Positions 5,754-20,741 of a stretch of 24,397 nucleotides of DNA are shown one piece after another. A model generated the notes under the pieces. That model worked only from the letters and a program-made list of their open reading frames with translations, was not told where the DNA came from and searched no databases. Origin of the DNA: a virus. Location of the stretch: positions 1-24,397 of IMG/VR virus record IMGVR_UViG_3300037427_002125, one strand, 5' to 3'. Both the position numbers and the translations under genes were made by a program. Position 1 is the first letter of the stretch; each line of letters opens with the position of its first letter.

Positions 5754-6347
5754 TTAGTCTTTGAGTTTTACTTGTGCACCAACAGCGGCTTCATCGCCTT
5801 TCGGTGTTTTGATTGTGACATTACGATAATAAACAACTACTTCTTGGACTTCTCTTATATATCGTCTTAGTTCTTGCATGTTATATGTCATAAGTTCATA
5901 GTCTTCTGTTGATATGGCAAAGAATACCACATCACCGTTATTCTTCTTCTTGATGTCATCTAAAAATCTATCTAGATATGTATAATCTTCTGGCCAGTCA
6001 TTTTCTTTACCTAACTTACATACTCTAATGACTTTACCTTTATCATTCAATAAACCATCAGGGTGATCCATCTTCGGTCTTTTAAACTTCTCTTTACCCT
6101 CTTTATCAAACTGTTTAGGTTCATATGATTCTTTTATACATGGATTAACTATTTTAGCTGATGATACTACATGCCATTTGGGATCTTTGAGATCAATATT
6201 TCTAGGCATGACTGGTTGAATGATATCAATCTCTATAGGTTTAGACGAAACTTCAATCTGTTTCGTTCCAAATATTGAACAACCACTAATTGTTAGGATT
6301 AATATCGGTGCTAGGATCGTCCAGCGAATCAAGCTCTTTGCTATCAT
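5754..6347 (-). CDS. Putative outer-membrane spanin lipoprotein (Rz1-like, o-spanin)
   Basis: This 197-aa protein has an N-terminal signal with the lipobox I-S-G-C (Cys23), so it should be a lipoprotein. It begins 62 nt inside the preceding coiled-coil membrane protein gene in another frame. That is the classical overlap of Rz/Rz1 spanin pairs, which join inner and outer membrane and fuse them at the end of lysis. At about 170 residues after the cysteine it is much larger than the short proline-rich Rz1 proteins and has a folded-looking domain (FLDDIKKKNNGDVVFFAIST and on). The role therefore rests on lipobox, overlap and partner, not on sequence similarity. It is followed by the primase promoter. 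Confidence 0.65.
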   Translation of the reverse strand: MIAKSLIRWTILAPILILTISGCSIFGTKQIEVSSKPIEIDIIQPVMPRNIDLKDPKWHVVSSAKIVNPCIKESYEPKQFDKEGKEKFKRPKMDHPDGLLNDKGKVIRVCKLGKENDWPEDYTYLDRFLDDIKKKNNGDVVFFAISTEDYELMTYNMQELRRYIREVQEVVVYYRNVTIKTPKGDEAAVGAQVKLKD

Positions 6348-6681
6348 TTTCTATACTCTCAAATACGGCCTTTGTTTGATCATTGGCCCTTGTTTCTATC
6401 ATACCTGGTTTAGCTATTGCTAATTTATTTAGATTGTGTCTTCTAAATATATCCAGATAACCGTTCATCTCAGCTTCAATCTGAGCGTTCTTAGAAGCCA
6501 TTTGATTCAAGGCGGCACCTTGTTTCTCATAACTTTCTTTTATTGTAGCTATCGCTTCTTCTTGTTGTTTAATAGCAATCTCTAATTGCATATTATTCAT
6601 TGTCAATGTTTGATTCTCTGAGTACAACCACCAACAACCCAATCCAAGAATTGCTATTATTGCTATAAAGAACTGTTGCAT
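6286..6681 (-). CDS. Putative inner-membrane spanin (Rz-like, i-spanin)
   Basis: This 131-aa protein has an N-terminal transmembrane anchor (about residues 3-20, FFIAIIAILGLGCWWLY), then a heptad-like coiled-coil region (about 25-75, rich in Q, E, A, I, M) and a polar periplasmic tail. This is the i-spanin architecture, and the lipoprotein gene overlapping its 3' end supplies the o-spanin partner. The start has GAGGATAA upstream, and the ATG overlaps the stop of the acyl carrier protein gene (TAATG region). No endolysin or holin is visible in the window, so the pair lies apart from the rest of the lysis genes, as T4 PseT.2/PseT.3 do. Confidence 0.7.
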   Translation of the reverse strand: MQQFFIAIIAILGLGCWWLYSENQTLTMNNMQLEIAIKQQEEAIATIKESYEKQGAALNQMASKNAQIEAEMNGYLDIFRRHNLNKLAIAKPGMIETRANDQTKAVFESIENDSKELDSLDDPSTDINPNN

Positions 6682-6896
6682 TATGAGTTATCCTCAACAT
6701 ACTGTCTTAGTTCACCTACAGTATGAAGTGTTTCTGCGTCTTCATCAGGAATCTCTATGTCATATTCTTCTTCAATGGCCATGACTACTTCTACTATATT
6801 CAATGAATCAGCTCCTAAGTCTTTAACAAAATTTGATTCATCTTTAATCATATCTTGATCAATACCTAGATTCTCTGCTATTATTTTTTCTATCAT
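6681..6896 (-). CDS. acpP: Acyl carrier protein
   Basis: This 71-aa acidic four-helix protein has the phosphopantetheine attachment motif G-A-D-S-L with the acceptor Ser31 and the following recognition helix ([20 protein letters not shown]), as in AcpP of fatty-acid synthesis. The length is slightly short of bacterial AcpP (about 77). It would need host holo-ACP synthase for activation, because no AcpS is seen here. A Shine-Dalgarno (ATAGG) precedes the ATG. It sits between an unknown gene and the spanin pair, not in any lipid operon. It may redirect host acyl chains or bind ACP-partner proteins; the sequence does not tell which. Confidence 0.9.
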
Positions 6897-7183: not shown

Positions 7184-7572
7184 TTCTTCCACTGTCTGGC
7201 TAAAGACTTAATTCTATCTTTCAATAGTTGTTTTTGTCTCTTTTGAACAGCTGCGTTCTTCTTTTTACGAACTACTACTGTTGAAGAATCGTCACCTGTT
7301 CCTGCTATATGTGGTCCAGTAACTGTACCCATATCTTCATTTCTTAGTTTCAATTTCTTCTCTCTCAATCTAGGCTCTTTTCTGTTATAGTGTTGAGTTA
7401 CTACTGAAAGATTATTCTTATCGTTGTTTAGAGGATTGTTATCTTTATGATGTACATCTTTATCTTCTGGTACATCTTTTAAAGACCTGCGAGCAGCATT
7501 TCTAGCTGCTCTTCTAAGCTTTTGCTCAGGTCTTGAATGATAATTATCGTATTCTTTTCTATAGTTTCTCAT
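7180..7572 (-). CDS. HNH-motif protein (putative endonuclease)
   Basis: From the ATG at 7572 this gives 130 aa. An arginine-rich N-terminus (MRNYRKEYDNYHSRPEQK and the following RRAARNAARR) precedes an HNH core: VHHKDNNPLNNDKNNLSVVT then H-Y-N-R. That is the beta-beta-alpha-metal layout of HNH endonucleases (H-H-K-D, N-N, N-L, H..N). The conserved-looking start NYRKEYDNYH argues for this ATG, which overlaps the peroxiredoxin gene by 14 nt. Upstream ATGs at 7578, 7599 and 7608 would extend it by up to 12 residues and place a purine-rich AGGGG before the start. The C-terminus is basic and may bind DNA. It may be a free-standing homing-type nuclease or a phage processing nuclease; no split gene is seen beside it. 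Confidence 0.75.
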   Translation of the reverse strand: MRNYRKEYDNYHSRPEQKLRRAARNAARRSLKDVPEDKDVHHKDNNPLNNDKNNLSVVTQHYNRKEPRLREKKLKLRNEDMGTVTGPHIAGTGDDSSTVVVRKKKNAAVQKRQKQLLKDRIKSLARQWKK

Positions 7573-8032
7573 AAACATTTTCAGGTGTTGAGACTTCATA
7601 AGGATCATCGCCCCTATTGTCCATCATACCTTCCTCGGCGAACATTTGTTCTACTTCACCATTATTTATAACAGCAGCGTATCTCCAACTTCTCATACCG
7701 AATCCAATGTTTGATTTATCAACTAACATACCCATTTTTCTAGTAAACTCACCATTACCGTCAGCCAACAACTTGACATAGTTAGCTCCTTGAGCTTTAC
7801 CCCAAGCTCCCATGACGAATGAATCGTTAACAGAAACACAATATATTTCATTGATTCCCTTTTCTTGGAATTCCATAAACATAGCTTCGAATCCTGGTAA
7901 TTGTTTATTTGAACAAGTTGGTGTAAATGCTCCTGGTAACCCGAATACAATTACTCTCTTGTCTCCGAATAATTCACGGCCATGGTGTGGTGGTAGTGGT
8001 GTGTTGTGAAATGAATGATTTAATAAATCCAT
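7559..8032 (-). CDS. Peroxiredoxin (Prx5-like)
   Basis: This 157-aa thioredoxin-fold peroxidase has the active site P-G-A-F-T-P-T-C, with peroxidatic Cys40 and Thr37, and the conserved arginine in GMRSWRYA (Arg117). VSVNDSFVMGAWGK and LLADGNGEFTRKMGM match the Prx5/type II family order. It should reduce peroxides in the host cytoplasm with thiol donors such as the phage glutaredoxin. The N-terminus is short relative to bacterial Prx5. An AAGGAG site sits well before the ATG. As an isolated stress gene among late genes it looks like an auxiliary metabolic gene protecting the infected cell. The family is firm and the benefit is inferred. Confidence 0.9.
   Translation of the reverse strand: MDLLNHSFHNTPLPPHHGRELFGDKRVIVFGLPGAFTPTCSNKQLPGFEAMFMEFQEKGINEIYCVSVNDSFVMGAWGKAQGANYVKLLADGNGEFTRKMGMLVDKSNIGFGMRSWRYAAVINNGEVEQMFAEEGMMDNRGDDPYEVSTPENVYEKL
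7663..7670 (-). promoter_or_regulatory. Possible internal late promoter (TATAAATA)
   Basis: A perfect TATAAATA lies on the minus strand inside the peroxiredoxin gene, about 90 nt before the HNH start. It would give late expression of the HNH, 92-aa, ACP and spanin genes, which otherwise have no promoter nearby. The same bases encode Val-Ile-Asn-Asn, so it could be chance in AT-rich sequence. Confidence 0.3.
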
Positions 8033-9011: not shown

Positions 9012-9407
9012 CTAGTTCAATTTAGCTGTTATTGAGAATCCACCATTTCCAGATGATTCGTATGAAATATTCATAGATAAGTCTTCTGGTATTGTTGGTA
9101 CTAAAACATGAGTTTCAGCTGGATCCAATTTCTCTCCAAATTGTGTTACAGGTAATGTTAATGTACCTGAATCGCCAGTTATTTCTGGCTTAGTTTCGAA
9201 TGTAAGTCCTAATTGTTGAACTTTCCCTGCTAATTGAGTTAAAGCTGCTTCAACACTCATAAATTCCATACTAGAATGTCCTTCTAACCATGCATTCACT
9301 CTTGTCTTAACATCTTCTTGATCTAGCATATGGAAATCTGCAGGGATATCACTCGATATCCCACCAGATCCATTACTTTCTTTTACAAATGTTCTAAAAG
9401 ATTTCAT
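9012..9407 (-). CDS. Putative internal head or virion protein with capsid-targeting-like N-terminus
   Basis: This 131-aa protein starts MKSFRTFVKE then SNGSGG, very like the T4 internal-protein capsid-targeting peptide MKTYQEFIAE, which the prohead protease cuts after Glu. If cut here, the mature protein would begin at Ser11 after a glycine/serine linker. The rest has a short helical segment (about 30-75) and a beta-rich C-terminal half (TLTLPVTQFGEKL, MNISYESSGNGGFSITAKLN). AGGATAT lies before the ATG. It closes the late structural block. Packaging is inferred; no family function is recognised. Confidence 0.7.
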   Translation of the reverse strand: MKSFRTFVKESNGSGGISSDIPADFHMLDQEDVKTRVNAWLEGHSSMEFMSVEAALTQLAGKVQQLGLTFETKPEITGDSGTLTLPVTQFGEKLDPAETHVLVPTIPEDLSMNISYESSGNGGFSITAKLN

Positions 9408-9419
9408 TATAATATCCTA

Positions 9420-10013
9420 TTAAGCTGTAACTGTGATTGTACCAGCTGCTGTACCGATAGCTGAACTACTAGTAATAGTAGCGTTTGTTGAAGTACCAGT
9501 ATCTTTAATAGTACCTGAATTTAAGTTCATAGCATTAGTTCCAACACTCAATACATCATCAGAATTTGTAGCTGCGTTAGCCGCGGCGATTGCTAATGTG
9601 AATACTAACTCATTACTTCCTGATCCAGAAACATATGGTAAGTTGTGTGGTCCTCTACCTGAACCTGAACCAGCATTACTGTTAGTAATAGCTACATAAG
9701 GTGTTCCACCCGATGTATCTACAGTTACCGCTTCGTTAAAGAATACTCTAACAGAAAGACTAAATCCTTCTGATTTATCTGCTGCTGTTGTAATCCAATC
9801 TATTTCAGTTATATCTGCAGAACCTAAAGAGGTTGCTAGTGAACCGATAGCCACTAATACTTCTGGTGTAGCACTTGTGTTGCCGTTACCAGATTGTGTA
9901 GAGCCGGCTTCAACTACCCAACCGCTTGCGTTCGCATATACTTCTTTTTTCTTTGCAGTTGTCAAGTGTTTAGGTTTTGACTCGTCTGCGTCTGTTGCTC
10001 CCCATAGTGGCAT
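9420..10013 (-). CDS. Virion structural protein with Ig-like beta region
   Basis: This 197-aa protein opens with MPLWGATDADESKPKHL followed by KKKEVYANASGWV, a start I recall in marine T4-like structural proteins. Residues of about 65-197 are beta-rich and low in charge (FSLSVRVFFNEAVTVDTSGG, PYVAITN, ELVFTLAIAA) and resemble bacterial Ig-like/adhesin repeats ending in a Ser/Thr-rich tail. That suggests a surface decoration or tail accessory protein. Expression is late: a perfect TATAAATA lies 37 nt upstream and a strong GGGAG ribosome site precedes the ATG. The exact structural role is unknown. Confidence 0.75.
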   Translation of the reverse strand: MPLWGATDADESKPKHLTTAKKKEVYANASGWVVEAGSTQSGNGNTSATPEVLVAIGSLATSLGSADITEIDWITTAADKSEGFSLSVRVFFNEAVTVDTSGGTPYVAITNSNAGSGSGRGPHNLPYVSGSGSNELVFTLAIAAANAATNSDDVLSVGTNAMNLNSGTIKDTGTSTNATITSSSAIGTAAGTITVTA

Positions 10014-10040
10014 TGTATTATCTCCCGATATTTTATTTAA

Positions 10041-10066
10041 TTCTATATGTATTTATACATTTAGAA
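10041..10066 (-). repeat. Imperfect palindrome centred on a late promoter
   Basis: Twenty-six bases read as TTCTA, A, ATGTAT, AA, ATACAT, A, TAGAA on the minus strand, an almost complete dyad. Its centre is the TATAAATA late promoter, and its loop carries the TAA stop of the upstream 151-aa gene. As RNA it could fold into an AT-rich hairpin that slows read-through or protects a 3' end; as DNA it could bind a dimeric factor. Confidence 0.5.
10050..10057 (-). promoter_or_regulatory. T4-type late promoter (TATAAATA)
   Basis: A perfect match to the T4 late -10 element, which is recognised by the phage sigma factor gp55 with the sliding clamp. It lies upstream of the structural gene starting at 10013. 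The expected +1 is about 6 nt downstream, leaving a leader of roughly 30 nt that carries the GGGAG ribosome site. Confidence 0.75.
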
Positions 10067-10508
10067 TCTTTACATATTGATTGAAAGTCTTTTTATCCTT
10101 TTTCATAGCTTTTTGGACTTGTCCGCGTTGTGCGGGTTTGACTTTCTCCAAATTCTTGAGTATTCGCTCAGCATCTTTTTTAGATATCTTAACTTTACTC
10201 TTATCATCTAATTTAATTTCACCACCTTTAGCTAAATCGGCGGCTCCCTTTATTTGAACAAATACATTTCGATCTGCTGAATCTTGTTCACCTTTATTAC
10301 CTTTTTGGTTAAAGTAATCAACAGCTGCTCTTGTTATTAGTTCATCCTTAGCATCTTTGTATTTACCACCCATTTTGAGTGCTAACTTATCAATCATGCC
10401 AAGTAATTCTTTTTCTGTTTTAGCCTTTTGAACTAAAGCAAATAAAAGATTGTTCCCTGCTTGTGAAGGCATTCCCAAATCTGGCGCTCTTCTTCCTTCG
10501 TTAATCAT
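10053..10508 (-). CDS. Small basic putative head-associated protein
   Basis: This 151-aa lysine-rich helical protein begins M-I-N-E-G-R-R-A-P-D-L-G. The I-N-E/G junction fits the prohead-protease rule (hydrophobic, any, Glu, then small residue), so four residues might be removed on maturation. The C-terminal half (KVKISKKDAERILKNLEKVK, then PAQRGQVQKAMKKDKKTF) is strongly basic and could bind DNA. It lies 1 nt after the 118-aa gene and ends inside the late-promoter palindrome. Its function is unknown. The late block and basic charge favour a packaged or head-interior role. Confidence 0.65.
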   Translation of the reverse strand: MINEGRRAPDLGMPSQAGNNLLFALVQKAKTEKELLGMIDKLALKMGGKYKDAKDELITRAAVDYFNQKGNKGEQDSADRNVFVQIKGAADLAKGGEIKLDDKSKVKISKKDAERILKNLEKVKPAQRGQVQKAMKKDKKTFNQYVKILNV

Positions 10509-10509
10509 A

Positions 10510-10866
10510 TTAAGTATTCTGTACTATTGGGACCCAGTTTTTACCCCAACCAGGTCTATAATCCGTGTAATTTTTGTCTTTTGCAATGTCTTTTCTACCT
10601 TTATCAACAACTGTACCATTAACTTTAATAATTCTTTGTCCAGCAAAATGAGCTGTAACATGCTTAATCGCTAATTTATGTGCTGGTGATAATGGTTCAG
10701 GTGCTTTAATTAAAATAGAATCTCTATCACTAGGACTCCATTCAACTTCCATACCTACGGCAGGTCCTAAACCTACTTGTTTTCCACCCTGCATACGAAA
10801 CTTATACTGTGAGTATTTAGCTCTTTCGTCTAAACTGTATCCTTGTCCTGGTTGAGTCCAATTCAT
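10510..10866 (-). CDS. Small late protein, unknown (118 aa)
   Basis: This 118-aa basic protein contains YSLDERAKYSQYKFRMQGG near the start and RPGWGKNWVPIVQNT at the end. It is mixed alpha/beta with no catalytic motif seen. An AAAGGG-type site precedes the ATG, and the gene starts 3 nt after the 664-aa gene. It is probably a virion or assembly component because it is embedded among late structural genes. I do not recognise the family. Confidence 0.65.
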   Translation of the reverse strand: MNWTQPGQGYSLDERAKYSQYKFRMQGGKQVGLGPAVGMEVEWSPSDRDSILIKAPEPLSPAHKLAIKHVTAHFAGQRIIKVNGTVVDKGRKDIAKDKNYTDYRPGWGKNWVPIVQNT

Positions 10867-10868
10867 TG

Positions 10869-12863
10869 TTATTTACCCTTTATGTATCCCAACTTCCTCA
10901 TTTTCTCACGGAAGTTAGTTCTTCTGGCGTCTATTTTTACTCTAGAAAGATCAAGTTCATCTTCTTTAACAGGCTTTCTTTTATCACCTTCTTTGACTCT
11001 CCTTCTAGTTCCATCTTTAGCAATCCATTCATCAGTTTCTTTCTTACCGTCCCAATTCTTATCTATGTAATTATAGAATTCTTTCTCTTTATCACCTGAT
11101 AATTCAGCTGGTGAACTTACACCAAACTTTTTAAGAACTGACGCGAAAAACTTCTGATACTCTGATTGTTCCTTCTCTGATAATGCATTATAGAATTCGT
11201 TGTTGAATGTCTCATTCGCTAGTCTTAACATTCTTTCTACTTCTGGATCATCTGATAATCCTTTCTTAATTTTTTCGATAGCTTTAACAGCTCCTGTCAT
11301 ATTACCACCGACATATCTCTTATCAAAAGCTATCCCACCAGCCATTCTAACTAGTTTCTTAGGAAATTTAGCTTCAGATATAACTTGATTAAATGTTTTC
11401 ACTTCTTCTTCCTCGATATACTTAAATGTGAAAGACTTACCTGTATGCTTATCTTTAATGTTGTAAGTGTTCTCACACATTTTTAAAATTGGGCCAGCTG
11501 CTTTCATTCCGTCTGGTTTTACAAATTCTATTTCTGTTTCTGTTTCTAACGCTTCATCAATCTGAGCTCTAGAATAATCTATTGCGTCTAAAGGCTCTTC
11601 TGCTGTTACTGATTCTAAAGCTAAAATCATTCTTTGTGTTTCTCTCTCGTCAAATATATCTGTTAGTTCTGATATATTATATGTTAAGAAACCAGATTTT
11701 CCAAGTGTTTTTTGTAATTGTTCTACTTGTAGTTCTTCATCTGTAATCATACCAAATGAATCACATGCTTCTAAAATGTCTTCTCTTTTAGCGTGTCTTG
11801 TTCCATATCCTTCTGTCGCAATACCAACAGCTCTAGGATAAGATTTTGATTTTAATTTGAATGGAGTTTTAGTGACTAAAGTTTCTTCTTTGAAAGGTAA
11901 CATTTTGCCTTTAGGCTTTTTAATATTTCCGCGAGGTCTTTTAACTTCATTTTTTACTGACTTAGTTATAGCTGCTCTTCTTTTCTTTAGATACTTATCT
12001 GCATCGTCTGAATCACCATCGTTGTCAATATCATCATCACCCTTTCCAACAGGATCTAAAGCTTCTTTCATATATGCTTCAGGTGCATGAGTGATTTTAA
12101 ATCCAGATAGTTTGAATCCCCATTCATTCATCCATTGAACTACTGGTATTCTCGCATCTCCAACTTTCTTAACATCATCATATTCAAGAGTCATTTTATA
12201 CCATTCATCCCAAACCCAGTCATTACCTACTAAATTACCAAATAGTTTTTGTGCTTTCTTTTCTTCTTTTTCTGTTTTAACAAGTAACGGTTTTGATAAT
12301 GCTTTTTGAAGTTCTTTAATTTTAGACATTGTATCTGGAACTGCCCATACACCTTCTTGAAGGGTTTCTTCTTCAATTCCTTCTTTATGAAGATCAGCTT
12401 GTTTTATTCTAGCTCTAACAGAATTGAGGTCACTCATTTCTTCTTTACTGAATAATTCGTTGTATGGAAATCCTTTTAATGGTTCTTTATCAAACTCATT
12501 ATGAGCTTTTAATCCCATAACTTTGTGTGCTAATCCTATTAACACATTTAGTTTAGCATTTTCTATTTTCTTTTTGTTAGCATCGTTTACTTTAGCATAT
12601 GCTTTAACAACAACACTTGCTGTAAACATATCGACCATAGTACCTTCGATTTTCTTAGCACCCTTAGTCTTAACAATGTCTTGCATTATTTCAAATGCTG
12701 TAGCTTCATTAAGTTTCTGTTCTAATACAACAGACTTATCTTTAGTATAACCCATCTTCTGTGCTTGTTGAGCGTATCTAGATTTGGCTGGTTGTTTCTT
12801 TGTTACTTCTTCAATAGCCTTTTTCAAGTCTTTGAAGTCATTAATGACTGTTGTATTTTTCAT
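10869..12863 (-). CDS. Large mosaic late protein, possible prohead-processed polyprotein
   Basis: This 664-aa, highly charged protein is built of apparent segments. Residues 278-289 (DIDNDGDSDDAD) match a 12-residue EF-hand/dockerin-type calcium loop and are followed by a basic helix (KYLKKRRAAITKSVKNEVKR). LQE/GVWAVPDTMSKIKEL begins a segment I recall from cyanophage proteins. Five sites fit I/L-x-E before A or G: L51-E53, L168-E170, I363-E365, I435-E437 and I495-E497. The last lies in VKTFNQVISEAKF, which looks like an internal copy of the capsid-targeting peptide. It may be cut by the phage prohead protease into several internal proteins. The ATG lies 7 nt after the 92-aa gene, downstream of the tandem late promoters. 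No enzyme domain is recognised. Confidence 0.8.
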   Translation of the reverse strand: MKNTTVINDFKDLKKAIEEVTKKQPAKSRYAQQAQKMGYTKDKSVVLEQKLNEATAFEIMQDIVKTKGAKKIEGTMVDMFTASVVVKAYAKVNDANKKKIENAKLNVLIGLAHKVMGLKAHNEFDKEPLKGFPYNELFSKEEMSDLNSVRARIKQADLHKEGIEEETLQEGVWAVPDTMSKIKELQKALSKPLLVKTEKEEKKAQKLFGNLVGNDWVWDEWYKMTLEYDDVKKVGDARIPVVQWMNEWGFKLSGFKITHAPEAYMKEALDPVGKGDDDIDNDGDSDDADKYLKKRRAAITKSVKNEVKRPRGNIKKPKGKMLPFKEETLVTKTPFKLKSKSYPRAVGIATEGYGTRHAKREDILEACDSFGMITDEELQVEQLQKTLGKSGFLTYNISELTDIFDERETQRMILALESVTAEEPLDAIDYSRAQIDEALETETEIEFVKPDGMKAAGPILKMCENTYNIKDKHTGKSFTFKYIEEEEVKTFNQVISEAKFPKKLVRMAGGIAFDKRYVGGNMTGAVKAIEKIKKGLSDDPEVERMLRLANETFNNEFYNALSEKEQSEYQKFFASVLKKFGVSSPAELSGDKEKEFYNYIDKNWDGKKETDEWIAKDGTRRRVKEGDKRKPVKEDELDLSRVKIDARRTNFREKMRKLGYIKGK

Positions 12864-12870
12864 AATAATA

Positions 12871-13149
12871 TTAGTTTGAGTTGACTGCTATGCCGACAGC
12901 CATAATCGCTGCATTGGCTGCGAATAATTGATCTGAAGGATCTTTTTGAATGATGGCTTCTTGTTGTCCATCAAGTGAAAATGTTCCAATATCTGTACCA
13001 CCAGATTCTTCTAGTGTTACTAAATATTCTGTTCCGGCCGCTGCGGTGTTCCACAGTCTTACATATCTGCTCTTACCAACATTGGAGGCTGCTCCTGTAC
13101 TTGTACCTAAAGCCGCTTCAGTTGTTATTGGTTTCCATGGGAATGACAT
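12871..13149 (-). CDS. Small beta-rich virion protein
   Basis: This 92-aa protein has no cysteines and a composition rich in A, G, T and S (SRYVRLWNTAAAGTEYLVTL, GTDIGTFSLDGQQEAIIQKD). It reads as a compact beta-sandwich, as in small capsid or tail decoration proteins; similar short proteins occur in marine T4-like phages. Two tandem late promoters and a CGGAGAA ribosome site lie directly upstream, pointing to very high late expression. The structural role is inferred from expression and composition. Confidence 0.75.
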   Translation of the reverse strand: MSFPWKPITTEAALGTSTGAASNVGKSRYVRLWNTAAAGTEYLVTLEESGGTDIGTFSLDGQQEAIIQKDPSDQLFAANAAIMAVGIAVNSN

Positions 13150-13173
13150 TGTTAGTTCTCCGTTATTATATTG

Positions 13174-13181
13174 TATTTATA
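13174..13181 (-). promoter_or_regulatory. T4-type late promoter, downstream copy
   Basis: A perfect TATAAATA on the minus strand, 24 nt before the ATG at 13149. It is the second of two identical boxes offset by 16 bp. The leader would be short but includes the CGGAG ribosome site. Confidence 0.75.
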
Positions 13182-13189
13182 TATTCTTA

Positions 13190-13197
13190 TATTTATA
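13190..13197 (-). promoter_or_regulatory. T4-type late promoter, upstream copy
   Basis: A perfect TATAAATA, 16 bp upstream of a second identical box, in the 57-bp gap before the 92-aa virion gene. This is the densest late-promoter signal in the window and probably drives the 92-aa, 664-aa, 118-aa and 151-aa genes. Confidence 0.75.
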
Positions 13198-13206
13198 AAG
13201 GTTAAA

Positions 13207-13605
13207 TCAGTCAGGTCTATTATCATCAGTGCCTTCATATTTATCCCATAAAGTCTGATATGTGTTAGTATATTCTGAATCTTCTTCTAAAATCATTATA
13301 ATTTGTTCGTGTTTACTATCAAAATCTGTAAATTTTTCTGGTGTTGAACCTGATCTATCAGCTGGTTGAGCTGATGTTTGTAAATTTGTAGGTATGTTCC
13401 AAGTAAAAGCTGCTTTATCTATTGGTGTTATAGTACTATAATCAGGTACTTCATTTGACTTAAAAGTTTCTTCACCTGGTGGATCTCTATAATATACAGT
13501 CTTATTTGAAGGTTCTTTATCATAAACTGAAATTGTACAAATAAGAGAAACAGTTTCACCATTACTTTTCCTTTGAAATTCGTATGTATCTTTTGTACTT
13601 AACAT
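13207..13605 (-). CDS. Small late protein, unknown (132 aa)
   Basis: The ATG at 13605 overlaps the stop of the 299-aa gene (ATGTTAA) and gives 132 aa. An in-frame TTG seven codons earlier is possible but less likely. The N-terminal half is beta-rich (YEFQRKSNGETVSLICTISV, NKTVYYRDPPGEETF); the C-terminal half is acidic and ends TDDNRPD. It is probably an accessory or chaperone-like partner of the fibre-like protein upstream, or a tail component. No family is recognised. Confidence 0.65.
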   Translation of the reverse strand: MLSTKDTYEFQRKSNGETVSLICTISVYDKEPSNKTVYYRDPPGEETFKSNEVPDYSTITPIDKAAFTWNIPTNLQTSAQPADRSGSTPEKFTDFDSKHEQIIMILEEDSEYTNTYQTLWDKYEGTDDNRPD

Positions 13606-14498
13606 GGATTTTGGTTCCAACCCCAATCGTGATCAGCTGAAACCCGACAAGCAACTCTGATTTCAGTATAAGAACTGTTGTATGATCCTCCACCAGGAGA
13701 ACTCGGGAATGTCCAATTAAATCTAACACCAACACCAAAATTCGCTGTAGCTGTTCCACTCGAATATCTTTCTGAAACAGCTGACTGATAAACATTATAT
13801 CCTATTTTAGTTGAACCCAAGTTAGTTGTAGAATTTGAACCGCCTGATATAGTAGCAACAGACCCTCCATGGCCTAAAAATCCTTGGGCCCCACCACTAC
13901 TAGCTTGTGTAGTAGTATAACTCATAGTACAACCTGTCGGTACCATACTTGTGCCACCACTAGTTCCAATTGTACCTAATTGGGTAGTTGACGAGGTATA
14001 AGTAGTTGCACCATTATTTCTATGGGTTACACTTTGGCCTAATCCTGATCTTGGTGCACCATAAATGTATATGACTCCACTAACTTTTGTACACCAAATT
14101 TGTAAACCGGTTGAGACCGATATTTGACAAGCATCGTTTGATACTTCATCAAATGCATATACGACTCCAGAGGTTCCAGTGCTGCCCATTTGCCATTTAC
14201 CAGGAACAGATCCAGGATCATAACCTCCCCACTCCGACATTGAATGTGATGCGGTATTTAATCCTGCAGATCCTGTACCTTGAGCGGAAGTTACTGTGCC
14301 AGCTTCTCTTTGACTATTATATCCACCGTAATTCATAGTATGTTTTACTAATCCATATTGTGAACTAGCACTTGTTCCATCAGCTAAGTTTGTTTTTACT
14401 TCTGCGCTAGATAGTGACCCCAAACTTAAATTAGAAGCACCTATACCTTTCTCTGAAGCTATACTACTCATACTAATATTACTTGTTCCTATCGTCAT
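13599..14498 (-). CDS. Fibre-like virion protein (Gly/Ser/Thr-rich)
   Basis: This 299-aa protein has a composition dominated by G, S and T and almost no lysine. It starts MTIGTSNISMSSIASEKGIG then ASNLSLGSLSSAEV, the Ser-rich beginning seen in phage fibre or receptor-binding proteins that dock to the virion through their N-terminus. The middle and C-terminus are beta-rich with aromatic clusters (SEWGGYDPGSVPGKWQ, GVGVRFNWTFPSS, DHDWGWNQNPC). AGAGG lies before the ATG. A tail-fibre or adhesin role is inferred from composition and location, and a head decoration is possible. Confidence 0.65.
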   Translation of the reverse strand: MTIGTSNISMSSIASEKGIGASNLSLGSLSSAEVKTNLADGTSASSQYGLVKHTMNYGGYNSQREAGTVTSAQGTGSAGLNTASHSMSEWGGYDPGSVPGKWQMGSTGTSGVVYAFDEVSNDACQISVSTGLQIWCTKVSGVIYIYGAPRSGLGQSVTHRNNGATTYTSSTTQLGTIGTSGGTSMVPTGCTMSYTTTQASSGGAQGFLGHGGSVATISGGSNSTTNLGSTKIGYNVYQSAVSERYSSGTATANFGVGVRFNWTFPSSPGGGSYNSSYTEIRVACRVSADHDWGWNQNPC

Positions 14499-15574
14499 TA
14501 CTTACCTCTGATTGCCGCTATTCTTTCTTTCTCTGCTTTCTTAGTTGCGGGTAAAAGTTTCTTAGTTAACTTAGCAATTGCTGCTTTCTTCTTGTCTAAC
14601 TTTTTAGCTACTTGTACTCTCTGTGAAATTGTTAATTGACTTAATGGAATACCACCAGATAATTTCATAGCCATTGCACCTCTGGCCGCCATACCGGCTT
14701 TCTTTAACATATCAGCTGGTCCCTTCATTCTCATTGATTTCTTCTTAGCTGATCTCGCTCTTTTCTTAGCTGTTCGTTTAGCAATACGACCTCTTGCAAG
14801 TCTCTGTTGCATCGTTAAAGCTTCTTGCATTTCTATAAAGTCTTTAAATGTGTCCATTATACTATTATTTATGTCTTCTTTTACCGACGAATCCATACCT
14901 CTTTTAATCATAGCGATCCATTCTATAGCGTTAGTATTTAACTTCTTAGCCCATGTTGTTAATTTACCTGCAACAGAAGTATCTATATTACCAGTATTAT
15001 CATTATTCTCTATCTCATGATAATCTCTAGAACCAACTTGTTTTTTAAGAAGCTTCTTTACTTTCTGAGCTTGCTTCCATGATACTTCTACAATTCTAGG
15101 TGGAATAGTTCTAGCTCTAGCATTATTTCTAGCCATTGCTACATCTAAATCTGTTTGTATGAATATAACTTTAACATCATATCCCGCACCTTGTAATTTA
15201 TCAATTATTTTCTTAGTCTTAGCCTGATCACCAGATGTCGAATCAATTATAACTCCTAATCTTGCATCTAATAATGATGACAATCTTCTATCTGTTAACC
15301 CTTTAGCAGCCTTTCTAACTACTTCTCTTTCACTTTCTTCATCATCAGGCATCTTCAATGAGAGACCTTTCTTTTTCATTATCAGTTCAAAAAAACTATC
15401 TGAGTTTACAACTACTAGTCCTAAAGAATGTAGTCCCAACTTTCTTGCTACAAAAGATTTACCACTACCTGGACCACCTGCTAATACTACAGCTTTAAAA
15501 ATACCAGGATCATGAATACCTTCTTCTATGTCTAGTACTAAATCTTCTTCTTTATAATTAAGTATCGATTCCAT
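14498..15574 (-). CDS. P-loop kinase-like protein with basic DNA-binding-like tail
   Basis: This 358-aa protein has two regions. Residues 26-190 are a P-loop kinase of the zeta-toxin/polynucleotide-kinase-like type: Walker A GGPGSGKS (33-40), NSDSFF after strand 2, IIDSTSGD (109-116) as the probable acceptor or Walker-B region, and an arginine-rich lid (ARNNARARTIPPR). Residues 240-358 are extremely basic (QQRLARGRIAKRTAKKRARS and on), like phage head proteins that bind DNA. The junction MDTFKDFIEMQE/ALT (240-252) looks like a capsid-targeting peptide with a cleavage site, preceded by a CATAAATA box. The N-terminus also has IEE/G at residue 18. AGAGG precedes the ATG. The substrate is unknown: nucleic-acid ends, UDP-sugars and nucleotides are all possible. 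Confidence 0.75.
   Translation of the reverse strand: MESILNYKEEDLVLDIEEGIHDPGIFKAVVLAGGPGSGKSFVARKLGLHSLGLVVVNSDSFFELIMKKKGLSLKMPDDEESEREVVRKAAKGLTDRRLSSLLDARLGVIIDSTSGDQAKTKKIIDKLQGAGYDVKVIFIQTDLDVAMARNNARARTIPPRIVEVSWKQAQKVKKLLKKQVGSRDYHEIENNDNTGNIDTSVAGKLTTWAKKLNTNAIEWIAMIKRGMDSSVKEDINNSIMDTFKDFIEMQEALTMQQRLARGRIAKRTAKKRARSAKKKSMRMKGPADMLKKAGMAARGAMAMKLSGGIPLSQLTISQRVQVAKKLDKKKAAIAKLTKKLLPATKKAEKERIAAIRGK
14866..14873 (-). promoter_or_regulatory. Possible internal late promoter (CATAAATA)
   Basis: CATAAATA lies 8 nt before an internal in-frame ATG (14857, codon 240 of the P-loop gene). That ATG begins a capsid-targeting-like peptide, so the site could yield a separate 119-aa basic protein from a nearly leaderless late transcript. 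The bases also encode Asp-Ile-Asn-Asn, so coincidence is possible. Confidence 0.4.
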
Positions 15575-16433
15575 ATTTCCTCTTTGCCATTTGCATTGCT
15601 GTTCCGTGCATTATTGAATCAGCTTGATCCCCATATCGTTTTACAAAATCATCTCGTTCTTTCTTTAAATCTTTATACATCTTTTCTTTATATTTTAAAA
15701 CTTCTTTAGGTAAATCTTCTGCTTCCTTTATTTTTCTAACATAATCTACTACTGTTTGACCTGGTGTATGATTCTGTGCCCACGCTCTACCTTCATCTGT
15801 ACCCCATTCACCATTATATATTTCATACATAAAGTCTGGAAAATCTTCTGTTACACCCATACCTTTTTGTACTGCTTTATATAATTGTTTACCCAGTCTA
15901 TATCCTTTTGGTAATGCATCAATAAATTCTTTTTCTTGACTCATACTTGCCATTTGTCTCATTTTAGATGCTGACATACCAACATCACCGGCAGCGTCTG
16001 GATCTCTCTCACCAGCTGATATGATATTAATACTTTTAAAATTATAATATCCATGTCTCGCTTTAACACCATTATATTTCTTTAACAAATTATCAAATTC
16101 TCTAATTCTATCTGAACCAACAACCATTTGTATCATTCTATAACCATCATTATATAAATCTACAACTACATCAAAAACTGTTCTGGCTTTAGTTGAAGAT
16201 ACATTGATACCTCTTGGTAACATAGGATTCATAAACTTTCGTATCTGTGCGTTTGTTAAAGGATTCTTTACATCACCTGTTGTATGAGAAGTGTATATTT
16301 TTACATCATGTCCCTTTGAAACTGATTTCATCTTAGCGGCTAACTTCATATGCCCAACAGTAGGTGGATTGAATCTACCAAAACTAAATGTAACTCCTTT
16401 ATCTTTTGCTTCTGTTATGTCTTTAAATTTCAT
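15558..16433 (-). CDS. Nucleotidyltransferase (NMNAT/cytidylyltransferase-like)
   Basis: This 291-aa protein has a Rossmann-type nucleotidyltransferase domain at about residues 12-185. FGRFNPPTVGHMKLA carries the T-x-G-H variant of the HxGH motif, and GMSASKMRQMA matches the ISSTxIR nucleotide-binding motif. Such enzymes transfer AMP or CMP to nicotinamide mononucleotide, pantetheine or similar phosphates. The C-terminal 100 residues are charged and helical, with no known domain. The N-terminus MKFKDITE/AKDKG fits the I-x-E/A prohead-protease pattern, suggesting delivery in the head. A TAGAG-type site precedes the ATG. NAD synthesis or nucleic-acid capping are possibilities, but the substrate cannot be read from sequence. 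Confidence 0.85.
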   Translation of the reverse strand: MKFKDITEAKDKGVTFSFGRFNPPTVGHMKLAAKMKSVSKGHDVKIYTSHTTGDVKNPLTNAQIRKFMNPMLPRGINVSSTKARTVFDVVVDLYNDGYRMIQMVVGSDRIREFDNLLKKYNGVKARHGYYNFKSINIISAGERDPDAAGDVGMSASKMRQMASMSQEKEFIDALPKGYRLGKQLYKAVQKGMGVTEDFPDFMYEIYNGEWGTDEGRAWAQNHTPGQTVVDYVRKIKEAEDLPKEVLKYKEKMYKDLKKERDDFVKRYGDQADSIMHGTAMQMAKRKYGIDT

Positions 16434-16698
16434 GTTTCTCTATTTTTAAAACTAAATCTGTTTTTCCTCTAATTAATCTATGATACATCATCATTGGTAT
16501 AATAAATTTTTGTTCTTTTTTCATTTCAAATGGTAAACTACCATTAAATTGAAATTGCCATCCCTCACCTTCTAATATTATAATCTTTCTTAATTCTTCA
16601 TCACGATGCCAGACTAATTCTTTAATATCTACATTTCTAGAAAAAGTTCTGATATCATCATTATCAATATATGGTTTACCAGAAGAAATTTCCACCAC
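16423..16698 (-). CDS. Small cupin-like phage protein
   Basis: This 91-aa protein, from an ATG overlapping the end of the upstream gene, contains LVWHRDEELRKIIILEGEGW and QFQFNGSLPFEM, then FIIPMMMYHRLIRGKTDLVL. This matches the pattern V-W-H-R-D, W-x-F-Q-F, L-P, I-P, Y-H-R-L-I-x-G of small cupin-fold proteins found in several phages. The two histidines could bind metal, but a complete cupin metal site (H-x-H...E...H) is not obvious. The overlap of 23 nt with the previous gene and 11 nt with the nucleotidyltransferase suggests coupled translation. Function unknown. Confidence 0.7.
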   Translation of the reverse strand: MVEISSGKPYIDNDDIRTFSRNVDIKELVWHRDEELRKIIILEGEGWQFQFNGSLPFEMKKEQKFIIPMMMYHRLIRGKTDLVLKIEKHEI

Positions 16699-17044
16699 CC
16701 TTTAATCCTAAATCTTTAGCGAAGTATGGTAATCTACAACTCCAATATCTAGCTGATAGTTTATCATTAGCAGTATCACAATTATGTCTATCTGCAAAAG
16801 CTTTTCTTGCTTTTGGATCGTCAATCTTTACAGCTAAATTCTTACCACCATCAGCAGCACCAAAAGAAACCTTCTTTACTTTATCTCCATCTTTAACATA
16901 GACATAAAATTTCTTTGAACCACCTCTTTTAGGTTTATTTATTTCTTTATCATCATTTTCTGTTACTTCAACCATTGGACTTTCTAAAGGTACAAATTTA
17001 CCTTCATATTTATCAAATTCTATATGTTCTAAAAATGATTTCAT
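16676..17044 (-). CDS. Conserved phage protein with RHxCD and YWSCR motifs (DUF5872-like)
   Basis: This 122-aa protein has a C-terminal two-thirds (KKFYVYVKDGDKVKKVSFGA, then ARKAFADRHNCDTAND and ARYWSCRLPYFAK) that matches a small family widespread in phages, with the two cysteines and the R-H-N-C-D / W-S-C-R signature; I recall it as DUF5872-like. The N-terminus MKSFLEHIEFDKYEGKF resembles the capsid-targeting start, although the I-x-E cut site is not clear. Its ATG overlaps the stop of the 101-aa gene (TAATG). The conserved Cys, His and Trp could form a metal or nucleic-acid site. The function is not known. Confidence 0.75.
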   Translation of the reverse strand: MKSFLEHIEFDKYEGKFVPLESPMVEVTENDDKEINKPKRGGSKKFYVYVKDGDKVKKVSFGAADGGKNLAVKIDDPKARKAFADRHNCDTANDKLSARYWSCRLPYFAKDLGLKGGGNFFW

Positions 17045-17349
17045 TATTTAACCTTAGCTAATATTTGTGTTAATACTTTCTTAATATCTCTATCAGCAAG
17101 CATCCAATCTTTAGACATATTTCTAAGTTCAGAACTTTTCAGTAATGGTTTAATATCTGATTTCTTTAATCCTGGAAAAGCTTTTACTAATTCCCCGACC
17201 ATTATATGACCTAGTATTGTATCTTTTAATGCCGATATCCATCCACGCCCTACAGAAGAATCAAAATAAGATTTACCTCTTATGTTAGCAGAACCTTTTT
17301 GATCACCACGACCATAATCTTCTAATATAAATGTTTGAAATGTTTTCAT
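17044..17349 (-). CDS. Putative packaged protein with strong capsid-targeting-like start (101 aa)
   Basis: This 101-aa protein begins MKTFQTFILE then DYGRGDQ, the closest match in the window to the T4 IPIII targeting peptide MKTYQEFIAE (same length and same M-K-T-aromatic-Q-x-F-I-x-E pattern). Cleavage after Glu10 would leave a 91-aa basic helical protein. A GATAAATA box lies five bases before the ATG, which would make the transcript leaderless; those bases also encode the end of the upstream gene. No other domain is recognised. Confidence 0.7.
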   Translation of the reverse strand: MKTFQTFILEDYGRGDQKGSANIRGKSYFDSSVGRGWISALKDTILGHIMVGELVKAFPGLKKSDIKPLLKSSELRNMSKDWMLADRDIKKVLTQILAKVK

Positions 17350-17353
17350 ACTA

Positions 17354-18565
17354 CTATTTATCCCAATTCTTAGCTACTGTAAAATTGTTAAAACTGAATT
17401 CTAATTTATCTACTATCTTAACAGCTCCACCACTTTTGTCAATCGCTACATATCCTTCGGGATTAACAACTTTAAAACCATTATCTGTTTTAACGAATGT
17501 CTTAGCGATACCCTTAGCTGAATCAAGTTGACTCAATATCATCAATTTTGCTTCTACCATATACTTGATAAAGTCAACTACATCTTTTAATGTTGTTGTC
17601 GCCTTTCTTATCTCAGCTAAATGTCTTTTTAAATTTTGTTTAGATGTCGGTGAATCACTCTTATTCTTTATCCACCAATCATTAAAGTGTTTAAAATACA
17701 TTTGTACTACTTTGCCAGAATCAGGTAATGTCTTACCAGCTCTCGTATATGTATTTAGATAAGTTTTAAAGCCCGCACCTACTGCTGATGAACCTAAACT
17801 ATCTTGCCATTTAAGAAATGCATTAAACTTACCTGAATTTATTCTTTGAAATTTTTTACCAGCGTTAGATAATACTTTAGTTACTTTCATTGTATCTTTT
17901 GCTGTGAATGTAGCTCTACCTGATACATCTTTAAATGTAGCATCATCTTGCCATACACTAGATGATTTACCTGGTATCTTAGCTCCGAATGAAGCTTTTA
18001 AATTCTCTACTGAATCACCTTTATATGTTGTGTGCCATACTACACCAATTTTAGCCTTGTTAATTTCTTGTCCAATCTTTGAATTGACAGGAACAGCATA
18101 CATAATGGTATTAGGTTGAAATGTATAATGTGATTCACCATCAATGTCTGTTGTTTTTACATCATCTGTAAACATTAGATCACCTTGTAATATTTCACTC
18201 ATACCTAGTTTACTAAACTCTGCTAATGATACTTTAAGTTTGGCCGCAAGTTCACCACCTTTATCATTATCTATATCTTCATCTGTATGATAATATGCTT
18301 CATCTGCCTTTCTTTTCCTGAATAAACTTTTTGTGGCCACAAAGAATTTGCCCGTTTCAGGATGCGGTCCTGCGAACACAGCTGGTGCACCGTCCCATTT
18401 GACTGTAACATTTAATTTCTTACTTGAACTACTAGCGAACATATCTCTTAATGCTTGTAGAAACTGTATTGAACTACGACCACCAGCAATACCAAAGTTT
18501 AGAATCTCATCTTCTAGATGTTCTAAATGTAAATTCTTTCCGGCAGCTTCTGTTAAAAATTCCAT
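17354..18565 (-). CDS. Nucleotidyltransferase/ligase-fold protein (DUF6267-type)
   Basis: This 403-aa protein matches the DUF6267-type family I recall from cyanophages. NVTVKWDGAPAVFAG (52-66) has the K-x-D-G motif I of ATP-dependent DNA/RNA ligases and capping enzymes, with Lys56 as candidate nucleotide acceptor. LQGDLMF (126-132) resembles motif III and IGVVWHTTYKG (173-183) resembles motif IV/V. The C-terminal half is basic and helical. The N-terminus MEFLTE/AAGKN fits the I/L-x-E/A prohead-protease site. AAGGAATC lies upstream, and the ATG overlaps the previous stop (TAATG). It may adenylylate and seal nucleic acid ends. No OB-fold domain is apparent, so the reaction is unproven. Confidence 0.8.
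   Translation of the reverse strand: MEFLTEAAGKNLHLEHLEDEILNFGIAGGRSSIQFLQALRDMFASSSSKKLNVTVKWDGAPAVFAGPHPETGKFFVATKSLFRKRKADEAYYHTDEDIDNDKGGELAAKLKVSLAEFSKLGMSEILQGDLMFTDDVKTTDIDGESHYTFQPNTIMYAVPVNSKIGQEINKAKIGVVWHTTYKGDSVENLKASFGAKIPGKSSSVWQDDATFKDVSGRATFTAKDTMKVTKVLSNAGKKFQRINSGKFNAFLKWQDSLGSSAVGAGFKTYLNTYTRAGKTLPDSGKVVQMYFKHFNDWWIKNKSDSPTSKQNLKRHLAEIRKATTTLKDVVDFIKYMVEAKLMILSQLDSAKGIAKTFVKTDNGFKVVNPEGYVAIDKSGGAVKIVDKLEFSFNNFTVAKNWDK
17355..17362 (-). promoter_or_regulatory. Possible late promoter (GATAAATA) at a start codon
   Basis: GATAAATA ends 5 nt before the ATG at 17349, so initiation at the usual late +1 would fall on the A of ATG. It overlaps the last codons (Asp-Lys-stop) of the upstream gene, so it may be coincidental. 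Confidence 0.35.
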
Positions 18566-20727
18566 TACTTTAATGATTCCTTAAATTCTTTAGAGAAGGT
18601 GGCTAGAAAACTTGGAGCTGATGCGAAATTACCTTTGTATCTTAATTGTACATCACATATTGATGTAGTCCCGATATTTAAATTCATGTGTAACTGAGCA
18701 GCATTTGATCCTTTATCGAAAGCTTGTGTTTTTCTAGAATTTAATTTCATATTAGGTTTGCCGGTTTTAACTAATTCGTCTAATTTAGTGGCCATTACAT
18801 CTACTGATTTATATTCTCCCTTTTCAATTACAAGTCCCCTCTTTAACATTCTACCGATACCTGTTACTAATGCGAAATCAAAATTAACTTTTTGTAAGTC
18901 TTTTAAATCTGTTTTTAATATTAATTGTATTAACTGATCAGCAAATAAGTCAGCATTATCTATTATAACATCAGCCATGGGTTTAAATAATGATCTAGAT
19001 TTCTTTAATTGATAATTGATAAGATCGTTTGGTAATCCTTGTACAAATTTTTTCCAATTCGTTTTATTGATTCCGGCTCCTCTAGGGCCTAAATCGTTGA
19101 TCATCCTATTAGATAACCAACTATTACCAACTTTATCAACCGCTAATTTTGGTTTTCTCTTTTGAAATCTTTGAGCAGTCTTGACAAGTTTTATATAAAA
19201 CACTCCTGATGCTTCATCTAAATCTTCTCTAACTTTATCAAATTCTTCACCTTGTAAAAGTGTTGTAAATCCTTTATTAATTAATGTAGGATCTCCTGTA
19301 TTACCAGATGGTTTTTTCTTTAATGATATTCCAACAAAGTTATCACCTTTTTTGATAATGTAATCAGAAGCGTTAAAGTCTTTCATTCCGTATTTTGTAA
19401 CTTGAAATTGTTTAACATCATCATCCCAAGCCTTACCTGTTAAATAAACTTTATCGGCTCCTTTCCATCCGTTCTTTGCAACAACTTCTGCGGCTGATAT
19501 GGCCATCAATAAATTATCATAATCATTTTCTAATGCTTGTACTTCTAAATCTGAATGACCTATAACTTTACCACCCTTAACAATCTTTTTAACCTGTTCT
19601 ATTAATAAATCTAAATCTTCTATTGTTTCAACTGTCGGTATAGAGTTCATTGTACATAAAGCTGCCGTCATTAATTCATTTGGATCTGCTTTAGCCCCTC
19701 CACCCCTTTTACCATCTGGTCTTGTAGTAACATATATTTTTCTGTCTATGCCTTTATGAAAGAAGGCGAAATCTTTTGTAACTCTCGCTGGAGCTGGATC
19801 AGTAAGTTCTAAATCATCATCACCACGAATAGCACTTCTCGCTAAAGTAGTGAATTTAACTCTTTCATTATCTTTTAATATTATCTGAATTCCAATCTTC
19901 TTAGTATTAGTTCTACCTTTTCTTTCATCAACCATAACATCACCATTAATTGAACTTATTTGTTTATCAATCTCTGCCACAACATCAACTGCAAACTCAA
20001 TTTCATCTTGGTTAGAGTATTCTAGTGACTCAACCATTTCTAATGTTAGATCAGGTTCCATACTTGATTTTGAATAATTATACAGTGCTTCACCCAAACG
20101 AATACCAAACGCAGTATCACTCGGATAATGAGCTCCGGCTATTTGTCTACTCTCACCTATTCTTTTTCCTATCTCTAAGATACCATGTCTATGTTCTAAT
20201 GGTACTTCATCAGCTACTAACAATGATATCAATCTACCTTGTGTAGCATGTCCAGATGGGTATGAAGGTGTTCCTGCTGTTTTTAATGGAAAGTTATCTA
20301 ATGGTAATCCTAATTCTTTAGCTAAAGCTTTAGGCCTTGGTCTGTCATAATGTCTTTTAAGAGACAATATTATAGGATCAGATTGTTCTTTTAATTCTTT
20401 TATTCTAGTAAAATCTATTTCGATACCATATTCATCTAAGTAATCTTTAAATGGTTTAATGACTTTAAGATCATACATTATCATTTCATTTTGCCAATCA
20501 GTTCTAAACTGGCCTAATGAAATTAGAAATTGTATTTCTTTCTTAGTTTTTTCAGATGAGTTTTTAGGATAAGGAAACTGTTGCCAGTCTTCAATATCAA
20601 AATATTTGAATTCAGAATAATCTTTTTTTAGTTGTTTTAATCTCTTAGGATCTAACTTACCATGTCCTAATTTATCTAATTTAGATTCTACTGATTCTTC
20701 TTGGATTGTTTGTAGAAATGATTTCAT
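18565..20727 (-). CDS. PAP2-type phosphatase fused to nuclease-like region
   Basis: This 720-aa protein has the full acid-phosphatase signature of the PAP2/vanadium-haloperoxidase superfamily at residues 124-204: K-x6-R-P (Lys124, Arg131-Pro132), PSGH (157-160) and S-R-x5-H-x3-D (Ser193, Arg194, His200, Asp204). No transmembrane segments are seen, so it resembles soluble class A phosphatases. Residues of about 270-500 contain DPNELMTAAL, then ASDYIIKK and GISLKKKP (Glu351, Asp455, Ser468-x-Lys470), which could be a PD-(D/E)xK-like nuclease core with Ser replacing Glu. The rest is basic and helical. The N-terminus MKSFLQTIQE/ESVES resembles a capsid-targeting peptide. CATAAATA ends 6 nt before the ATG. 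The phosphatase call is firm; the nuclease reading is weak. Confidence 0.85.
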   Translation of the reverse strand: MKSFLQTIQEESVESKLDKLGHGKLDPKRLKQLKKDYSEFKYFDIEDWQQFPYPKNSSEKTKKEIQFLISLGQFRTDWQNEMIMYDLKVIKPFKDYLDEYGIEIDFTRIKELKEQSDPIILSLKRHYDRPRPKALAKELGLPLDNFPLKTAGTPSYPSGHATQGRLISLLVADEVPLEHRHGILEIGKRIGESRQIAGAHYPSDTAFGIRLGEALYNYSKSSMEPDLTLEMVESLEYSNQDEIEFAVDVVAEIDKQISSINGDVMVDERKGRTNTKKIGIQIILKDNERVKFTTLARSAIRGDDDLELTDPAPARVTKDFAFFHKGIDRKIYVTTRPDGKRGGGAKADPNELMTAALCTMNSIPTVETIEDLDLLIEQVKKIVKGGKVIGHSDLEVQALENDYDNLLMAISAAEVVAKNGWKGADKVYLTGKAWDDDVKQFQVTKYGMKDFNASDYIIKKGDNFVGISLKKKPSGNTGDPTLINKGFTTLLQGEEFDKVREDLDEASGVFYIKLVKTAQRFQKRKPKLAVDKVGNSWLSNRMINDLGPRGAGINKTNWKKFVQGLPNDLINYQLKKSRSLFKPMADVIIDNADLFADQLIQLILKTDLKDLQKVNFDFALVTGIGRMLKRGLVIEKGEYKSVDVMATKLDELVKTGKPNMKLNSRKTQAFDKGSNAAQLHMNLNIGTTSICDVQLRYKGNFASAPSFLATFSKEFKESLK

Positions 20728-20733
20728 AAACAG

Positions 20734-20741
20734 TATTTATG
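20734..20741 (-). promoter_or_regulatory. Late promoter (CATAAATA) before the PAP2 gene
   Basis: CATAAATA lies in the 20-nt gap between the coiled-coil gene and the PAP2 gene, 6 nt before the ATG at 20727, with no ribosome site between them. It marks the change from replication genes to late genes. The transcript would carry at most one leader base. Confidence 0.55.

Follow-up and report, generated by a model that had tools for sequence, protein, structure and literature searches.

Does a short peptide shared by several phage proteins mark them for loading into the head? The question is raised by IMG/VR record IMGVR_UViG_3300037427_002125, a 24.4-kb fragment (24,397 nt, hereafter the window) in which a run of minus-strand genes encodes proteins carrying variants of a peptide, or tag, of roughly 10 residues with the consensus M-K-[ST]-F-x-x-[FYTI]-[ILV]-x-E. 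Genes are named here by their start base on the minus strand (for example 20727 and 9407), and L-numbers denote loci of relatives or scanned viral contigs. Through its DUF6267 protein the window finds its nearest cultured match in Methylophilales phage Melnitz (53%), followed by Pelagibacter phage HTVC008M, and all three have the cluster flanked by helicase on one side and by primase/ribonucleotide reductase genes on the other. We propose, with a probability of about 0.87, that the tag belongs to a capsid-targeting system of the T4 type whose enzyme cargo is large and modular; the window is best explained as a piece of a marine T4-like phage of the Kyanoviridae type whose late cluster encodes head cargo.

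The tag and its counterpart in T4

The N-termini singled out in the original prediction (Table 1) all occur on the minus strand where it placed them, as do its two internal peptides, MDTFKDFIEMQE/A from residue 240 of gene 15574 (base 14857) and VKTFNQVISE/A from residue 488 of gene 12863. Their description as capsid-targeting-like holds for most of the list, but two of the nine are weak. MKSFLEHIEF (17044) is conserved as MK[ST]FLEHI[DEN][FY] and has no x-E site there, and we rejected it as a full tag; MINE/G (10508) has no tag, and its homologues keep M-[IL]-x-E/G with x varying freely, so that it resembles a bare protease site. The full T4-type key (K/R at position 2, hydrophobic residues at 4, 7 and 8, E at 10) is present in three window genes, 20727, 17349 and 9407, against a mean of 0.0085 genes and a maximum of 1 in 2000 residue shuffles, and the same genes stay the top three of the 36 window genes scored when matrices are built with one family left out.

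A 10-position matrix trained solely on metagenomic (marine) homologues of three window families gives T4 internal proteins (IPs) IPI and IPIII scores of 19.1 and 18.2, while the other twelve T4 proteins scored fall below 3 except gp24 (9.4). T4 gp24 is itself cut by gp21. Protease sites of the major capsid protein share the form of the tag site, being FLSE/A, ILTE/A and LLTE/A in these phages and SFLTE/A in T4, and the leader of the Melnitz protease reads MKLIAEQIQEVEYITE/A. T4 genetics has mapped targeting to residues 4 and 7 and processing to residues 8 and 10 (PMC9026906), and it is these positions that the marine tag conserves. A peptide of about 10 residues combining both pairs is found in 20727, 17349 and 9407; 18565 and 16433, whose forms are shorter, match the T4-type peptide less exactly.

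Like T4 IPI, IPII and IPIII, whose capsid-targeting sequence (CTS) is MKTYQEFIAE, the marine proteins combine a tag of about 10 residues, key positions 4, 7, 8 and 10 and a Glu before the predicted cut with the predicted character of late head cargo that includes small basic members. Unlike the T4 IPs, the predicted marine cargo is mostly enzyme-like and unrelated to them, tags also occur internally or at C-termini, and some relatives have many tagged genes per contig. The ejection proteins of the giant phages phiKZ and SPN3US offer a looser parallel, in that a prohead protease strips propeptides from internal proteins, but with another specificity, cutting at A/S-x-E.

We suggest that the tag acts as a T4-type CTS whose residues 4 and 7, aromatic or hydrophobic, would dock the protein onto the prohead core; a gp21-type prohead protease would then cut after the Glu of hydrophobic-x-Glu, releasing the mature enzyme within the head, from which it would be ejected with the DNA. 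The predicted cargo comprises the PAP2-domain protein, the DUF6267 protein with its ligase-like KWDG motif, a cytidylyltransferase/NMNAT-like enzyme, a zeta-like kinase, small basic proteins and the 9407 protein. The syntenic relatives Melnitz and HTVC008M encode a prohead core, protease and major capsid protein of T4 type; in the present phage these genes would lie outside the 24-kb fragment. Alternatively, the peptide could dock proteins that are not head cargo onto some other phage machine (baseplate, tail or replication complex). The cluster does adjoin DNA-replication genes in the cultured relatives. We consider this reading very unlikely, because the key positions equal those of the T4 CTS, IPI and IPIII were recovered blind by the matrix, the hydrophobic-x-Glu ends resemble those of the major capsid protein and tagged proteins are detected in virions, as described below.

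Conservation, spread and presence in virions of relatives

Conservation was counted as distinct IMG/VR homologue sequences passing a loose tag rule, which is met by 19/22 PAP2, 34/55 DUF6267, 42/70 cytidylyltransferase and 19/19 9407-family sequences; about 17 further families from these loci have 0-2 tagged members each (helicase 0/34, RecA 0/22). Within the 9407 family, F4, F/Y7, I/L/V8 and E10 are kept while the remaining sequence drops to 29% identity.

The tag extends far beyond these families. Scanning viral contigs with two DNA patterns yielded at least 253 matches, at least 234 of them at the starts of open reading frames of 45 residues or more, compared with 22 matches and 3 such starts in the control, a complete scan with the residue order reversed; T4-like protein matches are found in 205 of the 238 loci listed vs 6 of 21 control loci. 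On the scan loci the matrix finds at least 321 tagged N-termini in at least 128 families, as against 1 match in the residue-reversed null, and at least 73 loci carry more than one tag. Recognisable tagged cargo includes ADP-ribosyltransferase, HD_4 hydrolase, adenylate kinase, RNA ligase, zeta-like kinase and cytidylyltransferase domains. The tagged HD_4-domain protein at L309:1226-1783 resembles (p)ppGpp hydrolases.

Published virion proteomes of related phages suggest a link between the tag and the particle. When the matrix was run over all 219 proteins of S-CREM2, whose virion proteins have been listed by mass spectrometry (PMC10665884 Table 3), the five best scores all belonged to detected proteins (the cytidylyltransferase, an APH-like kinase, an S-adenosylmethionine (SAM) hydrolase, gp13 and gp136), an outcome with a probability of ~0.0006 by our own arithmetic for 5/5 drawn from 52/219. 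Over all S-CREM2 virion proteins the tag score is not significant (Mann-Whitney p=0.57), as expected because virion proteins are mostly structural and untagged, and the signal is confined to the top ranks. Similarly, homologous cytidylyltransferases occur in virions of S-CREM2, S-SZBM1, S-SCSM1 and S-SM1 and are tagged in S-CREM2, S-SM1 (MKKFSAFLNE/A) and S-SZBM1 (MRFRQFIIE/A), and the DUF6267 protein of S-SZBM1 is untagged and absent from that phage's detected list. The cyanophage papers, in the parts on which we draw, report presence without a targeting peptide, and the cargo set of the window differs from theirs; our literature searches turned up no description of a cyanophage capsid-targeting sequence. 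The set of packaged enzymes envisaged in the original prediction is supported by tagged enzymes in the published virion proteomes of two related phages, together with the S-SM1 cytidylyltransferase group.

Two observations stand beside these data. The Cas9-like virion protein gp12 of S-CREM2 (L133:7704-10313) has tag-like peptides at both ends, LRFASFMAE/A near the N-terminus and KTFRDFLN at the very C-terminus. In S-SZBM1, two adjacent, strongly tagged small genes (MKSFKSFLSE/S and MKTFKQYITE/A; L141:7612-8426, record 122311-123125) lie near the terminase genes and are absent from the published list.

Several points weigh against a capsid-targeting role. The window is a fragment without a prohead protease gene, and the virion data come from relatives. 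Some 40% of DUF6267 and cytidylyltransferase homologues fail the loose rule, in part because of the start that was chosen or because the tag is shorter. In most families residues 1-10 show no excess of pairwise identity over the rest because the key positions alone are conserved; conservation is therefore positional, and we dropped plain identity of these residues as an unclean test. The homologue alignment proposed at the outset nevertheless supports the prediction, the key peptide positions being kept amid a diverged remainder. The strict text rule that picks out detected proteins in S-CREM2 (4/4, Fisher p=0.003) was written after some S-CREM2 N-termini had been seen, and of the three best tagged S-SZBM1 proteins only one appears among the 30 listed as detected. 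Finally, the S-CREM2 authors themselves allow that abundant proteins may co-purify with particles, in which case the enzymes detected by mass spectrometry would be abundant late proteins and the leader a hitch-hiking remnant. This we regard as very unlikely, since detection tracks the tag and not the enzyme class (the S-CREM2 neighbours Dam and DNA glycosylase are untagged and undetected) and since leaders recur on the many families of the scan loci.

Internal and C-terminal tags at module boundaries

Gene 15574 encodes, in order, the kinase, SSVKE/DINNSI, MDTFKDFIEMQE/A and the basic module. The kinase ends in a C-terminal tag in at least 10 relatives without the basic module (EDINNNMIKRFKEYTSWR or IMKTFQEYRV at the protein's end), and in L037 a different 144-residue module follows the kinase tag. 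Conversely, in L044 and L149 the basic module stands alone as a gene tagged at its N-terminus; the kinase, for its part, is N-terminally tagged in L229, L301, L348 and Melnitz, the junction always being hydrophobic-x-E/G before DPG or DPN. Module swaps fall exactly at hydrophobic-x-Glu boundaries. In the 12863 protein VKTFNQVISE/A precedes a conserved C-terminal module, and L112 and L028 carry between the two an extra module ending in DIQE/G. We posit that the position of the tag is flexible, at either end of a protein or between two fused modules, and that in the window kinase gene a single internal tag between two cut sites would carry both the kinase and the basic protein. As far as our literature searches show, internal and C-terminal use of such tags is new and unreported.

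These placements also bear on whether the likeness could stem from a RegA-like translational operator at the mRNA start instead of a protein signal. Most copies do lie at start codons, and several read ATGAAATCATTT; however, the motif also occurs internally and C-terminally, motif positions are encoded by varying synonymous codons (in the 9407 family, 612 comparisons show 101 synonymous differences) and tag codon use broadly matches that of the rest of the genes, Ile excepted. On the strength of the codon variation and the internal and C-terminal tags, we rejected an operator origin as highly improbable.

Packaged T4 Alt, an ADP-ribosyltransferase, resembles the proposed capsid-targeted cargo in being an enzyme, in its short leader ending in hydrophobic-x-Glu and in its processing at both ends, the leader being cut at ITE-6 and the C-terminus being cut as well (PMC5694885). 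Its C-terminal propeptide after LTE-619 contains a tag-like DRVDFASFVSS (T4 alt, L143:3455-5503), which may, judged by its sequence, be a C-terminal targeting peptide. Among the tagged proteins of the window there is no ADP-ribosyltransferase Pfam match; among relatives, a tagged protein with an ART-PolyVal (ADP-ribosyltransferase) domain does occur in L192, a 14 kb viral contig with seven tagged genes.

The cluster and its predicted cargo

Directly upstream of the first tagged gene stands a T4-type late promoter (Table 1), and an CATAAATACT[AG]-like site is found upstream of this gene in 17/18 distinct relatives and before the helicase in none. Gene 13149 is preceded by two late-promoter-like sites, and 22/25 relatives have such a site. 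The late-promoter consensus is not enriched across the whole window, and only the conserved sites preceding 20727 and 13149 matter; these motifs point to late expression of the tagged cluster.

A PAP2 domain in the 20727 protein is supported. The model segments of low confidence, residues 1-13 of this protein and 1-10 of the DUF6267 protein, are probably unfolded. In the latter, K56, W57, D58 and G59 are invariant and form a KxDG-type motif like that of the ATP-dependent ligase/capping superfamily; the best matches in a fold search are ligases, weak at E values of at least 0.087, which is suggestive, and we do not accept the protein as a proven ligase. In DUF6267 relatives without the tag, the protein begins exactly where the mature form is predicted to start (M+AGKNLHLEH). 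The cytidylyltransferase is possibly NMNAT-like, and the enzyme activities of the cargo are likewise predicted.

Table 1. Tags, protease-like sites, genes and promoters of the cluster, all on the minus strand (pLDDT, predicted local distance difference test).
Feature	Position	Strand	Details
Late promoter, T4-type	20731..20741	-	CATAAATACTG; directly upstream of 20727
Tagged PAP2 acid-phosphatase protein	18565..20727	-	PAP2 domain residues ~15-222, C-terminal phrog_3060 domain; F4 invariant, E10 >=90% in 23 homologues
Capsid-targeting-like tag MKSFLQTIQE/E	20698..20727	-	Model residues 1-13 pLDDT <50
DUF6267 protein	17354..18565	-	KWDG (ligase/capping-like motif I); E 1.8e-93
Short leader MEFLTE/A	18548..18565	-	DUF6267 protein; like T4 Alt leader MELITE/L; model residues 1-10 pLDDT <50
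Small basic tagged protein	17044..17349	-	101 residues, net +8; tag MKTFQTFILE/D at 17320-17349; matrix scores 21.8-26.5, single families left out
Doubtful member, start MK[ST]FLEHI	16676..17044	-	MKSFLEHIEF; conserved start, no clean protease site
Cytidylyltransferase/NMNAT-like enzyme	15558..16433	-	Orthologues in virions of S-CREM2, S-SZBM1, S-SM1
Short tag MKFKDITE/A	16410..16433	-	Homologue forms MKTFNGFITE/A, MKSFNAFLSE/A, MKKFGKFLTE/A
Two-module protein	14498..15574	-	Zeta-like kinase (to residue 233), internal tag, Lys/Arg-rich basic module (residues 252-358)
Conserved site I-E-E/G	15521..15529	-	Start of kinase module; other phages LSE/G, LQE/G, IQE/G, LKE/G, ITE/G
VKE/DINNSIMDTFKDFIEMQE/A	14822..14884	-	Tag between two hydrophobic-x-Glu sites in kinase gene 15574
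Late-promoter-like sites, two	13174..13197	-	TATAAATA; upstream of gene 13149
Multi-module protein	10869..12863	-	664 residues; internal tag VKTFNQVISE/A at 11373-11402
Protein starting M-[IL]-x-E/G	10053..10508	-	MINE/G; conserved protease-like site, no tag
9407 protein	9012..9407	-	131 residues; tag MKSFRTFVKE/S at 9378-9407; tagged in 19/19 distinct homologues

Other features were noted in passing. The 10869-12863 protein contains, at residues ~270-310, an EF-hand-like Asp-rich motif, DDDIDNDGDSDDADKYL, of a kind shared by several phage families (phrog_4359, 38880, 22379). Elsewhere in the window, a small membrane protein gene overlapping a lipoprotein gene (5754-6681) is possibly an Rz/Rz1-like spanin pair, and 6681-6896 and 7559-8032 encode a putative acyl carrier protein and a putative peroxiredoxin-like protein, named by sequence. 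In Melnitz, the nearest cultured relative, a phage tmRNA gene is annotated (L125:15585-16037).

More broadly, we incline, with some reserve, to the view that a single docking-and-release tag, whether N-terminal, internal or C-terminal, is a general loading code of T4-like phages, in the ocean and elsewhere. By this code, effector families numbering in the dozens and unrelated to one another, such as kinases, nucleotidyltransferases, ADP-ribosyltransferases, HD hydrolases, a Cas9-like nuclease and SAM hydrolase, would be swapped as tagged modules or polyproteins, and sequence alone would be enough to list them. Tags placed internally or C-terminally between protease sites would widen the T4 rule and point to a way of designing fusions for protein delivery. 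The tag also offers a possible explanation for virion enzymes that have been published and left unexplained, namely the Cas9-like nuclease, SAM hydrolase, APH-like kinase and NMNAT-like enzymes. Few of the proteins that marine T4-like phages carry into their hosts are known, and with a rule that ranks packaged proteins by sequence the question can be tested genome by genome. Such a label may thus reveal which proteins these viruses bring into the host cell with their DNA, and would assign the action of many proteins of unknown function to the opening minutes of infection.

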